From Acidimicrobiales bacterium (GTDB lineage: Bacteria; Actinomycetota; Acidimicrobiia; Acidimicrobiales; SHLQ01): DNA of 64,000 bases. Location: contig JAHDCX010000008.1 of NCBI GenBank assembly GCA_020629635.1, forward strand, positions 124,001 to 188,000, in the 5' to 3' direction. This document shows, one piece after another, positions 14,685 to 37,168 of the stretch. The notes beneath the pieces were generated by a model that did no database searches, was not told the origin of the DNA, and saw only the letters and a list, made by a program, of their open reading frames with translations. A program made the translations under genes and the position numbers. Within the stretch, counting starts at the first letter, position 1. Each line of letters opens with the position of its first letter.

Positions 14685-14768
14685 ATGGGGTCAGGTCTGA
14701 CATAGCAACAGGTTCGGACCACGGGGCTACGAACGACGAACCTCTTGCTATGTCAGACCTGACCCCAT
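14685..14768. repeat. REP-like palindrome (REPIN-like doublet)
   Basis: Two 32-nt arms (14685-14716 and 14737-14768) are inverted copies with one mismatch, around a 20-nt loop. Each begins ATGGGGTCAGGTCTGACATA. Single copies of the same sequence occur at 34087-34118 and, inverted, at 35881-35913. The GGGGTCAG core resembles repeats often found near REP-associated Y1 tyrosine transposases; no such transposase gene is in this window. It sits between a divergent pair of genes (GNAT and acyl-CoA ligase). Confidence 0.85.
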
Positions 14769-33270: not shown

Positions 33271-34086
33271 ATGGCCCATGGAGATCCCCTTCCGTCCGAC
33301 CCCGGCGAGATCCGCCATCCCGAGCTCGTTCTCTACGACGTCGACGACCGGGTGGCCACGATCACCTTCAACCGTCCCGACCGGATGAACGGGATGATCG
33401 GCAACATGGAGCTCGTCTACCTCCAACGGCTCGTGCAGGCCGCACACGATCCGGAGGTCCGGGCGATCGTGGTGACCGGCGCCGGACGGGGTTTCTGCCC
33501 CGGAGCCGATCTCGCCTACCGAGCGGGCGAAGGCGACCTCCCGCTGCCCAACGAGGTCCTCCCGACGTCCCTGCCGTTGCAGGTGCCGAAGCCGATCATC
33601 GCAGCGATCAACGGTGCCTGCGCCGGAGCCGGGCTCGGGCACGCCATGTTGTGCGACATGCGGATCGCCGCCGCTGGAGCCAAGTTCACGACGGCGTTCA
33701 GCCAGCGCGGCCTGATCGCCGAGTACGGGCTTGCGTGGCATCTCGCCCACGTCGCCGGACGGGCGACAGCCCTCGACCTATTGCTCACCGCCCGAGTGCT
33801 TCTGGCCGAAGACATGGCCGAGCTCGGCTTGGTCAACCGTGTTGTTCCCGTGGGGGGCGTCGTGGCCGAGGCGCAGGCGCTGGCACGCGAGCTCGCCGCC
33901 AACGTGAGCCCGACGTCGATGAAGGTGATCAAGGACCAGGTCCTCAATCAGCCGTTGACCTCGCCCTTCGAGGCCATGACCCGCGCCGACGAGCTGATGT
34001 ATGAGTCCCTCCAAGGCGATGACGTGAAAGAAGGCATCACCGCCTTCCTCGAGAAGCGCCCCGTCGACTTCCCACCTCTCCCCTAA
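33271..34086 (+). CDS. enoyl-CoA hydratase/isomerase family protein
   Basis: A 271-residue crotonase-fold protein with oxyanion-hole segments GAGRGFCPGADL and AAINGACAGAGLGHAM. It also has FTTAFSQRGLIAEYGL and the late helix VSPTSMKVIKDQVL. One acidic residue of the active site is in AEYG; the classical PE motif is absent, so hydratase versus isomerase or thioesterase activity is open. No SD: the start is 7 nt after a -10 box. Its stop is directly followed by a REP-like repeat. Confidence 0.88.
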   Translation: MAHGDPLPSDPGEIRHPELVLYDVDDRVATITFNRPDRMNGMIGNMELVYLQRLVQAAHDPEVRAIVVTGAGRGFCPGADLAYRAGEGDLPLPNEVLPTSLPLQVPKPIIAAINGACAGAGLGHAMLCDMRIAAAGAKFTTAFSQRGLIAEYGLAWHLAHVAGRATALDLLLTARVLLAEDMAELGLVNRVVPVGGVVAEAQALARELAANVSPTSMKVIKDQVLNQPLTSPFEAMTRADELMYESLQGDDVKEGITAFLEKRPVDFPPLP

Positions 34087-34118
34087 ATGGGGTCAGGTCT
34101 GACATAGCAAGAGGTTGG
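34087..34118 (+). repeat. REP-like repeat, left copy of the pair bounding the 34-36 kb block
   Basis: A 32-nt copy of the sequence seen at 14685-14768, identical over ATGGGGTCAGGTCTGACATA and the following GCAAGAGGTT. It begins at the position after the hydratase stop codon and ends 1 bp before the lipoprotein stop. Confidence 0.85.
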
Positions 34119-34119
34119 C

Positions 34120-35274
34120 TTAGTGAGGAAGCTCTGTGACGACACCGATATCAACGATTCGGACGTTGCCGCTCGGGCCGACGCGGACGGTCTGTTCGAC
34201 CCGGACTCGACGGATCTGGCCGCTCTTCGTGTCGGCCCAGATGAATGTCTGGTTGCGAACCTCGGTGTCCGCAATCAGCTCGTCAAACTCTTCGGACCCT
34301 GCGTCTGGAAACAGCGGCCGGAGTGAGTCGGACAGGATTGGGCCCGCCGACTCTCGGTCGAGCTCTGTGACGAGATGCACTAGCCCGCACGACGTGGATG
34401 GATCGAACGCGGTGGTGGCATTCGTTGTGGCTGGGTACGGCGCGCCACCAAGGTGGTTCGGGAGTAGATCCGAGGTGGAGGCCGGTACGCCAAGCTCGAA
34501 TTCGTAACCCTCAGCAGCGTGATACACCTGCACGTCTGCAATCGCGATTGCAGCGACTGCCTCATCGCTCATCGTTTCATAGCGACTCGGGTCGAAGGCT
34601 GGGCCGCCTTCGAGCTCAGACAAGGCTCGGTGGCCATCGAGAAGCACTTCGCGGACCTCGTCAAGGTTCTCGACTGTCGCAACCAGTCCCGACTCAGCGA
34701 CCCGCAACGTGACCGGCGGAGGCGGCGAATCCAACAACTCTGAGAGAACGGCACCCTCAGTCCCATCCGGCGCCCCGACGACGAGCGGCGGTGTTCCCCA
34801 CGTCCACCGCACGCTCTGTCCATCCTCGTCCCACCCTCCGTATGCGATGGCCGCCGGCGTGGTGAAGCCGATACTGAAGGGGTTGCGTTCGCCGATGTCT
34901 GTCGTGAACAGATCGGCGAGAAGCGTTGTCCCGTCCGGGACCTGGGTTCCCGTCTTGATGACCTCGGGAGGTGACTCACGCGGCGAGCATTGGGGTAGGT
35001 CGCGAAGAGCTGGGATGTCGGGAAGTGCCTCGAACGCTTGGAGAACACTGTTCATCTCGAATGAACTGGGCTCCGTGGGTGCGACCTCCAGAATCGTCGA
35101 ACTGGAACTGTCATCTGAAGTGGTCGTCGACAGGTCGGGAGAGGCCGATGACGACGTGGGTTGAGCCTGCGAGGTCTGCGTCGTGCTGGAAAGGGCTGCC
35201 GTTCCGGACTGCTCGCCTGCACAGGCAGAAGTAAGAAGCACGAGGATCGAGACCGTGACGGGAGCAATCCGCAT
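34120..35274 (-). CDS. hypothetical lipoprotein (in REP-bounded block)
   Basis: A 384-residue secreted protein with signal peptide and lipobox LTSAC (Cys 18). A long Ser/Thr/Gln/Asp-rich linker (about 20-70) is followed by a globular region without recognisable motifs. It contains single cysteines (LPQCSPRES, STSCGLVHL) and an acidic, Pro-rich segment. The C-terminus has SGQIRRVRVEQTVRVGPSG. The TAA is 1 bp from the left REP-like repeat. It is unrelated in function to the acyl-CoA genes on either side, which suggests it was inserted with the block. Confidence 0.6.
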   Translation of the reverse strand: MRIAPVTVSILVLLTSACAGEQSGTAALSSTTQTSQAQPTSSSASPDLSTTTSDDSSSSTILEVAPTEPSSFEMNSVLQAFEALPDIPALRDLPQCSPRESPPEVIKTGTQVPDGTTLLADLFTTDIGERNPFSIGFTTPAAIAYGGWDEDGQSVRWTWGTPPLVVGAPDGTEGAVLSELLDSPPPPVTLRVAESGLVATVENLDEVREVLLDGHRALSELEGGPAFDPSRYETMSDEAVAAIAIADVQVYHAAEGYEFELGVPASTSDLLPNHLGGAPYPATTNATTAFDPSTSCGLVHLVTELDRESAGPILSDSLRPLFPDAGSEEFDELIADTEVRNQTFIWADTKSGQIRRVRVEQTVRVGPSGNVRIVDIGVVTELPH

Positions 35275-35317
35275 AGGTCTGGGTCGGCACAAGCCAGCGA
35301 ACATCAAGCGGCGGATC

Positions 35318-35845
35318 TCAGCCGTGAGGCGTTACCCTGACGCCTCTGCCGGTCACAATTCGAGCGTCTCGGCCCAGACGCATCAGGCATGAATCGGCTG
35401 AATAGTGGACGGATGGACTCGCCGATGCCCTTCGGAGTCGTGGCATCCACGTGCGTAGCTCGCCGAAGTCGAATTCGACGTTCGGTGGCAGCGCAACGAA
35501 CAGGCACCCGCCCATCGCCATCTCGCTGTAGCCACCGATTGCAGTCACGCGTTCGGCGAACTCGCTGAAGTCGAAGGTCTCGGCACGCTGTTGCGACAAC
35601 AGAAAGTCATGTTGCTTCAACGGACTCCGTTCGACGACGGACACGAACTCGTAGACCTCCTCATCGGGCCGCTCATAACGGGTCGCATCGGGACCTCGGC
35701 GTCGCACTTCGATGAGGTCGTCGTAGCGAAAGGCTTCTTCGAACCAGGGGCAGCATGCGATGCGTAGGTGGTCCGTGCTCACCACCTCGACATCGCACGC
35801 GAAGGTGTCGCCGTTGACGCTGATTCGAACGTCCTTGGTTCCCAT
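35318..35845 (-). CDS. hypothetical protein (in REP-bounded block)
   Basis: A 175-residue soluble protein with no family recognised by eye. MGTKDVRISVNGDTFACDVE begins it; FEEAFRYDDLIEVRRRGPD and VTAIGGYSEMAMGGCLFVAL are further landmarks. The last 40 residues are Arg-rich and may not be native. An upstream ATG (35926) would start inside the promoter of the divergent gene and read through the REP-like repeat, adding about 27 residues, so the start is uncertain. It lies upstream of the lipoprotein in the same direction with 43 bp between. Confidence 0.5.
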   Translation of the reverse strand: MGTKDVRISVNGDTFACDVEVVSTDHLRIACCPWFEEAFRYDDLIEVRRRGPDATRYERPDEEVYEFVSVVERSPLKQHDFLLSQQRAETFDFSEFAERVTAIGGYSEMAMGGCLFVALPPNVEFDFGELRTWMPRLRRASASPSVHYSADSCLMRLGRDARIVTGRGVRVTPHG

Positions 35846-35880
35846 TCGAACAACGTGCCACCGATCGGGCCCCACCCATT

Positions 35881-35913
35881 CGAAACCTCTTGCTATGTCA
35901 GACTTGACCCCGT
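35881..35913 (-). repeat. REP-like repeat, right inverted copy
   Basis: A 33-nt inverted copy of the 34087 repeat with few changes. One C-to-T change turns CTGACC into TTGACC (35904-35909), creating a possible -35 box for the acyl-CoA dehydrogenase at 35966. Confidence 0.8.
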
Positions 35914-35943
35914 TGTACGGGGACATACTGTACGGAGGCATAC
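35904..35943 (+). promoter_or_regulatory. promoter and 13-bp direct repeats before an acyl-CoA dehydrogenase
   Basis: TTGACC (35904-35909), 16 bp, then TACTGT (35926-35931). Across and after it, TACGGGGACATAC (35916-35928) and TACGGAGGCATAC (35931-35943) form a 13-bp direct repeat with a 15-bp period and two mismatches. It could be a regulator site overlapping the promoter. Confidence 0.5.
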
Positions 35944-35965
35944 GAACGCGACCGGGGAGTAGCCG

Positions 35966-37168
35966 ATGGCTGAGACGTTGACCACCGAAGAGTCCGAGGC
36001 GTTTGCGCTCCGCTGTCGTGAGGTGCTCGAGTCGCTTGCGGGCGAGTCCGGTGGTGAAGGCCTCGACGACGCCAAGTGGTGGCTCGGTCAGGTTGCCGAG
36101 GCGGGCCTCGGCGGCATCGTGTACGACGCCGACCACGGCGGCGCCGGCCTCACCAAGGCGCACGACAAGATCTGGCGTCAGGAGAAGGCCAAGTTCGCCG
36201 CCCGCGACGGAGAGTTCGTGATCAGCCATGGCATGTGCCTGCCGGTGATGAACGACTTCGGCACCGACGAGCAGAAGCGCACCTTCATGCCGCAGATGAT
36301 CACGGGCGAGACGATGTGGTGCCAGATGTTCTCCGAGCCCGGCGCCGGGTCGGACGTCGCCAGTCTCGCCACGAAGGCGATGCTCGACGGTGACGAGTGG
36401 ATCATCAACGGCCAGAAGGTCTGGACCACCCTCGCCCACGTGTCCGACTACGGCATCCTCATCGCCCGCACCGACCCCGAGGTCGTCAAGCACGCGGGCA
36501 TCTCGATGTTCATCGTCGACATGAAGGCCCCCGGCGTCGAAATCCGCCCGATCCACCAGATCGACGGCGGCAAACACTTCAACGAGGTCTTCTTCACCGA
36601 CCTGCGCATTCCCAAGGACTGGCTCCTCGGCGAGCTGAACAACGGCTGGAACCAGGCCACCGCCATGCTCATGTACGAGCGGGTGGCGATCGGCAGCCTC
36701 GGCGCCGGCAGCGCCATCAGCCAACCGATGACCAAATCGCTCATCAACGCCGCCACGAAGAACGGCCGCATCCAGGACGCAACCGTCCGCGACGAGCTGA
36801 TGAAGCTCTACGCGATGGAGAGCACCAAGGCGATGGTGGCAATGCGGGCCCGCGCCGAGGTCAAGGCCGGCAAGGCCCCCGGCCCCGGCGGCTCGCTCGG
36901 CAAGCTGGCGTCGTCGGAGATCTCGTGGCGCTACCGCGAGATCGCCCAAGCGATCCAGGGCCTCGACTCCCAGGCGTGGGTCGACGAGGGCGAGCCTGGC
37001 CATGCCGTGCAGTCCCGAGTGCTCAACTCGTTTCAGGCCGGCATTGCGGGCGGAACCGACGAGATCCAGCGCAACATCATCGGCGACCGTGTGCTCGGTC
37101 TGCCCCGAGACATCTCGGTCGACAAGGGTGTCCCGTTCAACGAGCTGAAGACCGGCTCGGCGAGTTGA
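35966..37168 (+). CDS. acyl-CoA dehydrogenase
   Basis: A 400-residue acyl-CoA dehydrogenase, of the type with QMFSEPGAGSDVASLATKA and GQKVWTTLAHVSDYG. The C-terminus has AGGTDEIQRNIIGDRVLGLPRD. The ATG follows GGGGAG. Its stop overlaps a TTG that starts the next gene. The N-terminus lacks the usual catalytic-domain extension of long-chain types; the substrate is probably a medium or branched acyl-CoA. Confidence 0.92.
   Translation: MAETLTTEESEAFALRCREVLESLAGESGGEGLDDAKWWLGQVAEAGLGGIVYDADHGGAGLTKAHDKIWRQEKAKFAARDGEFVISHGMCLPVMNDFGTDEQKRTFMPQMITGETMWCQMFSEPGAGSDVASLATKAMLDGDEWIINGQKVWTTLAHVSDYGILIARTDPEVVKHAGISMFIVDMKAPGVEIRPIHQIDGGKHFNEVFFTDLRIPKDWLLGELNNGWNQATAMLMYERVAIGSLGAGSAISQPMTKSLINAATKNGRIQDATVRDELMKLYAMESTKAMVAMRARAEVKAGKAPGPGGSLGKLASSEISWRYREIAQAIQGLDSQAWVDEGEPGHAVQSRVLNSFQAGIAGGTDEIQRNIIGDRVLGLPRDISVDKGVPFNELKTGSAS

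Follow-up and report, generated by a model that had tools for sequence, protein, structure and literature searches.

Facing repeats of a probable TIRYT/REPIN system bracket two orphan genes in an Acidimicrobiales bacterium

A 1.8-kb block in the DNA analysed here (the window, a stretch of 64,000 nt) raises the question of how two orphan genes came to stand between facing copies of one repeat. The initial annotation placed the repeats at positions 34087 and 35881, with two minus-strand genes and no transposase between them. The inverted pair is present: segments 34086-34116 and 35884-35914 are 94% complementary across 31 nt, with 1,767 nt in between. The enclosed genes are a lipoprotein-like ORF at 34120-35307 and a second ORF, g2, that ends at 35318, and no transposase is found among the enclosed ORFs. 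The features of the window that concern the block are as follows.

14685..14768, no strand: ordinary REPIN of the block's repeat family; two facing arms, a loop of about 22 nt, a long DNA hairpin
33271..34086, plus strand: left neighbour, enoyl-CoA hydratase-like gene; ends FPPLP*, without the C-terminal tail of the congeners
34087..34116, plus strand: left terminal inverted repeat (TIR) arm, AT + GGGGTCAGGTCTGACATAGCAAGAGGTT, directly 3′ of the hydratase stop codon
34120..35307, minus strand: lipoprotein-like ORF of 395 aa, an orphan for which the searches gave no full-length relative; by eye it has a signal peptide and the lipobox LTSAC
35318..35884, minus strand: g2, the second of the orphan ORFs, with an uncertain start codon and a similarity to DUF4265 that stays under threshold
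35884..35913, minus strand: right TIR arm, AC + GGGGTCAAGTCTGACATAGCAAGAGGTT; an operator-like palindrome upstream of the acyl-CoA dehydrogenase gene follows about 10 nt beyond the outer arm end
35924..35944, no strand: operator-like palindrome CATACTGTACGGAGGCATACG, by eye; similar sites precede the dehydrogenase gene in several congeners
35966..37168, plus strand: right neighbour, acyl-CoA dehydrogenase gene, conserved in congeners

The two block arms have a 28-nt core in common, with one mismatch between them. This core, GGGGTCARGTCTGACATAGCAAGAGGTT, has four matches in the window at up to 3 mismatches, as against none in 100 shuffles, and the four are the facing pair of the block and one inverted doublet of about 80 bp at 14687-14766. 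The left arm is placed where the hydratase and lipoprotein genes converge. Its core starts 2 nt past the hydratase stop codon (34084-34086), in agreement with the earlier remark that the left copy directly follows a stop codon, and stops 3 nt short of the lipoprotein stop codon. The operator-like palindrome marks resident sequence just beyond the right arm.

The description of the repeats as REP-like has to be corrected, in that they are not REPs of the canonical kind. Canonical REPs have a 5′ GT[AG]G foot and an imperfect palindrome of their own, and neither is found here; the arms begin ATGGGG. DNA folding of the single block arms is weak (-1.7 and -2.0 kcal/mol, z -1.2 and -1.5), and the doublet at 14685-14768 folds very strongly as DNA (-35.4 kcal/mol, z -10.9).

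Pattern searches were run over the whole genome (37 contigs, 4.45 Mb), and stretches of it were read. A 16-nt core gave 76 matches, versus 1 for the reversed control. The family consists mostly of inverted doublets of about 80 bp: thirty facing doublets of 45-89 bp were found, with conserved arms and variable loops, together with about a dozen single arms of the same family (11 in the placement statistic below). Inverted repeats, a variable spacer and a hairpin, the marks of a REPIN, are seen together in the doublets, the hairpin being computed for the one in the window, and not in the 1.8-kb block itself. AT precedes GGGG in 50 of the 60 doublet arms, and the right arm of the block has AC instead. 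The arms differ at position 8. The form GGGGTCAG, which fits the motif GGGGWSAS in full, occurs in 22/60 doublet arms and in the left arm of the block; GGGGTCAA, which fits 7 of the 8 positions of a motif that is given for some TIRs and not for all, occurs in 38/60 doublet arms, in the right arm of the block and in the arms of the transposase unit described below. The block arms disagree at position 8 (G/A), a position at which 24 of 30 doublets are concordant. Doublet arms are more similar to their own partner than to shuffled partners (p 0.0025).

Two further TIR families are present in the same genome. The second, GGGGTCAAGTCTTTCCAATCGACA, bounds a Y1 transposase gene on contig C4; the third, GGGGTCAAGTCYCAACAAGTAACA, was mapped for part of the genome, from the first 100 of 160 GGGGTCARGTC matches. 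One hybrid doublet (L047:1045-1111, C33:238344-238410) is composed of one arm of the window's family and one arm of the second family, although each of these families has its own transposase gene.

The initial annotation proposed a search of the genome for a Y1 transposase. Such a gene was found on contig C33, inside a facing pair of the same repeat with the same outward orientation as in the block:

L031 3106-3133 and 4106-4133, plus and minus strand: arms of the C33 unit, identical across 28 nt

This pair, of 1,028 bp, encloses a 331-aa Y1 tyrosine transposase, here called TIRYT1. Its aa sequence matches Pfam Y1_Tnp PF01797 (34.4 bits, cut-off 23), displays the HUH (NHYHLVL) and Y---NP (YVHRNP) motifs by eye, and scores 66.6 with NCBIfam REP_Tyr_transpos, under the cut-off of 80. 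A C-terminal extension is present, in which a helix-turn-helix like that of Bac_DnaA_C was sought; Pfam gives no second domain there at E 0.1. The Y1 gene product from C4 is 48% identical to TIRYT1.

Transposase genes flanked by terminal inverted repeats, some of which carry GGGGWSAS, have been described as TIRYTs or TIRtrons, and their TIRs are scattered both singly and as dimers (Di Nocera et al. 2013, PMC3733652). Their probable counterpart in the TnpA_Y1 classification is subclass 2.1, which includes RAYT group 1 (PMC6006769). The C33 unit shares with them a Y1 gene between inverted repeats that start GGGGTCA(G/A), where GGGGWSAS fits when position 8 is G, and related repeats scattered as singles and doublets. 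It differs in that this genome has about 30 strong-hairpin doublets at gene 3′ ends, and at least three coexisting TIR families with two TIR-bounded transposase genes. The inverted doublets, with their variable spacer, hairpin fold and minority of single arms, are like REPINs (Bertels and Rainey 2011, PMC3116915), but the arms have neither the canonical GT[AG]G foot nor the strong own palindrome of REPs, and the block, at 1.8 kb, is much longer. With the REPtron, the RAYT or TnpA_REP unit (Nunvar et al. 2010, PMC2817692), the C33 unit has in common a single transposase gene between inverted repeats and cognate repeats genome-wide; it departs from the REPtron in that TIRYT1 falls under the REP_Tyr_transpos cut-off and the repeats are of the TIR and not of the REP kind. 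The block repeats are thus very probably arms of a resident TIRYT (RAYT group 1-like)/REPIN system. We infer that TIRYT1 spreads the approximately 30 REPINs in trans by way of single-stranded intermediates; what is observed directly is the set of parts and how they are distributed.

Related Y1 genes are found in 16 of the 18 other genomes of the family that were searched, several with inverted repeats of their own, and the repeat of the window in 0/18. Congeners display other arrangements of TIRs. In genome G006 the family GTCGCGTCTCACYTTCACCC forms direct arrays with a period of about 34 bp, each with a facing inverted array 0.6 to 7 kb away. These arrays flank a DJ-1/PfpI gene (C32:3260-4066, L225:3260-4066), a 3.9-kb segment (C54:21375-25236, L226:1876-5737) and a transposase gene (C108). 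The array loci include L228 and L229:1808-4703, and by eye a GntR/MocR-like regulator, accompanied by a LysE-like exporter and a lipoprotein, is among the genes so bounded. The near relative G008 is collinear with G006 at the transposase locus (93.9% identity across 3.85 kb), and DNA identity between G006 and G008 is 91.7-93.9% at the loci compared. Genome G005 has the family GGGTCAGGCCTCAACAACTA, in units of about 230 bp with two arms per side (++ ... --), a double-armed form of REPIN (for example C28:20987-21221 and C41:41798-42030).

The doublets of the window's family are found almost always at the 3′ ends of genes. An ORF of 90 codons or more ends at -35 to +24 of the outer edge in 47 of 56 doublet arms, compared with 5/56 in a control 300 nt further out; reading frames near arms were called mechanically, and some are not genes. 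In 34/56 doublet arms the frame ends inside the arm, with the tails MGSGLT*, MGSSLT* or WGQV*. Arms often provide the stop codon of the neighbouring frame, for example at L151:4595, L155:4876 and L031:3106. The element may be tuned to insert harmlessly at gene ends. Single arms are likewise mostly found at gene 3′ ends (18/21), and 3/21 have no outer gene stop. The left arms of the block (hydratase stop at -2) and of the C33 unit fit the 3′-end pattern, and the right arms of both do not. The right arm of the block faces the 5′ end of a gene, which is uncommon among single arms.

The enclosed genes gave no match above cut-off in Pfam, nor any in NCBIfam, PHROGs, PADLOC or the contigs of 84,980 species. 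The lipoprotein was absent from the phages searched, and of 394 other genomes of the class 8 gave matches, all weak and partial; these mostly span the signal peptide and the low-complexity N-terminal region, and one spans residues 192-327. For g2, which was absent from the plasmids searched, one weak partial match (E 8e-4, 25% identity) was the sole hit among the other genomes of the family searched. Its similarity to DUF4265 (E 0.0068) is under the Pfam gathering score, its single-sequence fold is too poor to use (mean pLDDT 47.3), and its start codon is uncertain because the frame stays open past the right arm, as far as 37474. A second copy of the block was found neither in the genome itself nor in the congeners searched. 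The GC content of the block, 61.7% versus 65.3% for the window, is low, yet not unique within the window; GC3 was computed on greedy ORFs and is unreliable because wrong frames were picked. The block is an accessory, species-specific gene pair.

An empty site in related genomes, joining hydratase and dehydrogenase, had been suggested as a check, and the outcome is mixed. The block genes were not found in the congeners, and in G003 and G004 the two neighbours are directly adjacent, the hydratase ending about 100 nt before the dehydrogenase. But the site often holds an alcohol dehydrogenase (ADH) gene in the nearest relatives, as in G005 and G009, and the G003/G004 comparison is made at about 72% protein identity across a rearranged junction, with no strain-level empty site among the relatives compared. 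The ADH of the relatives is without a close counterpart in this genome (best 42% identity). The hydratase is without the tail GEGTxFDWM... of the congeners, and the loss falls exactly at the left arm. Because the hydratase tail is lost and the relatives' ADH gene is missing, the site must have been rearranged and not simply inserted into. Trees of the acyl-CoA dehydrogenase and the hydratase did not resolve the place of this genome, so that the block may either have taken the place of an ADH gene or have come into an empty junction.

According to the initial annotation the block could be a cassette moved in trans. If it is a single passenger unit, TIRYT1, acting in trans on the two outward-facing arms, would have moved both genes, as one single-stranded segment, to the 3′ end of the hydratase gene, in the manner presumed for REPINs. 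The block arms do share family and orientation with the ends of the TIRYT1 unit, and they lie tight against both the cargo and the resident sequence, with the hydratase stop codon at the left end and, at the right end, a gap of about 10 nt to the operator-like site. The cargo is not found in the congeners searched, the hydratase-dehydrogenase adjacency in G003 and G004 is as expected of such a transfer, and the facing TIR arrays of G006 around ordinary genes, such as DJ-1/PfpI, are consistent with it. Several observations run counter to this account: neither a second copy nor a strain-level empty site was found, the block arms are discordant at position 8, and the loss of the hydratase tail and of the ADH gene points to a rearranged site. 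Moreover, REP-bounded transposase units seem not to transpose as a unit (PMC6006769).

The likelihood that the two arms pair by chance bears on the same point. When the 11 single arms of the family are placed at random, a facing pair within 1.83 kb is obtained with a probability of 0.011, which is in favour of a passenger unit. The concern raised at the outset, that the repeats may be so frequent that their pairing is fortuitous, is borne out as regards frequency (76 matches). Long facing pairs number 3, compared with 0.11 expected at random (p 0.0002), in about 2.0 Mb, with the 3′-end preference ignored and from lists that were assembled after the pairs had been seen; this excess is a pointer and not a test.

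Other facing pairs were scanned for gene sets bounded by the repeat, and none was shown to have moved. The pair at C9:39375-40226, with a REP1 and a REP3 arm, brackets an SDR gene. G009, G002 and G005 share the order LLM>, <SDR, <SDR2, and SDR lies between the same neighbours in G006; this set was considered as a second cassette and rejected, since the gene order is ancestral in the congeners. The pair at C7:146097-147428 has REP3 arms and seemingly includes the 3′ part of ctaA, clpS and a DUF2017 gene, named by eye; judged from this gene content it appears to span resident genes. The apparent ctaA of C7 contains, in frame, a single arm of the third TIR family (L162:2561-3589), and the reading frame stays open. 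A further stretch, C13:47094-48019, is bounded by a single arm and by a REPIN, both of the window's family; the RNA-ligase-like gene inside it (L151:4623-5432, C13:47122-47931) appears to be split by a frameshift. Within the flanks retrieved, this gene was not found beside its YjbR-like left neighbour in the congeners.

As the C9 and C7 pairs show, facing single arms can arise around resident genes, which weighs against a passenger unit; since these other long pairs bracket ancestral-looking genes, pairing alone is weak evidence. The cassette of the initial annotation has in its favour a Y1 transposase with the same arms and genes that were not found in congeners, and has against it the frequency of the repeats, the lack of a second copy and the pairs around resident genes. 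A passenger unit is possible, but we regard it as rather unlikely.

The arms could also be the two halves of one REPIN that lay between hydratase and dehydrogenase and was opened by illegitimate recombination of gene-bearing DNA into its loop. Such an event would account for the family, the orientation, the position at the hydratase 3′ end and the orphan content without any long transposition, and one route described for the formation of single REPs is the disruption of a doublet by inserted DNA (PMC3116915). The loop is a target of just about 22 nt, however, no transposase is present inside the block, and discordance at position 8 is less usual within one REPIN. We find this origin unlikely.

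We prefer, at a probability of roughly 0.45, to see the block as an accessory gene pair bracketed by separate arm insertions, or by the remains of two doublets; single arms have been described as defunct remnants of REPINs (PMC3116915). One arm would have landed at the 3′ end of the hydratase gene and the other before the promoter of the acyl-CoA dehydrogenase gene. The left arm fits the 3′-end preference, the C9 and C7 pairs need no cassette, and the disagreement at position 8 agrees with arms of separate origin. The chance value of 0.011 makes the coincidence uncomfortable, the enclosed genes are orphan, unlike those of the C9 pair, and few single arms point, as the right arm does, at the 5′ end of a gene. 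Separate insertions are nonetheless judged somewhat likelier than any single alternative. The weights given to these readings, with a very small share kept for something else, are the author's weighing and not a calculation.

More generally, a TIRYT-type single-strand transposase might move kilobase gene cassettes in trans between dispersed TIRs, with the lipoprotein pair, and perhaps the array-bounded genes of G006, as examples. This proposal is doubtful; if true, TIRYT systems, which are thought to spread only hairpins of about 100 bp, would also shuffle accessory genes. If the 1.8-kb gene pair proved mobile, the RAYT/TIRYT family, credited so far with moving tiny hairpins only, would join the gene-moving transposons. 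The present analysis adds a new TIRYT system whose repeats strongly favour gene 3′ ends, and offers a defined place at which gene movement can be tested.
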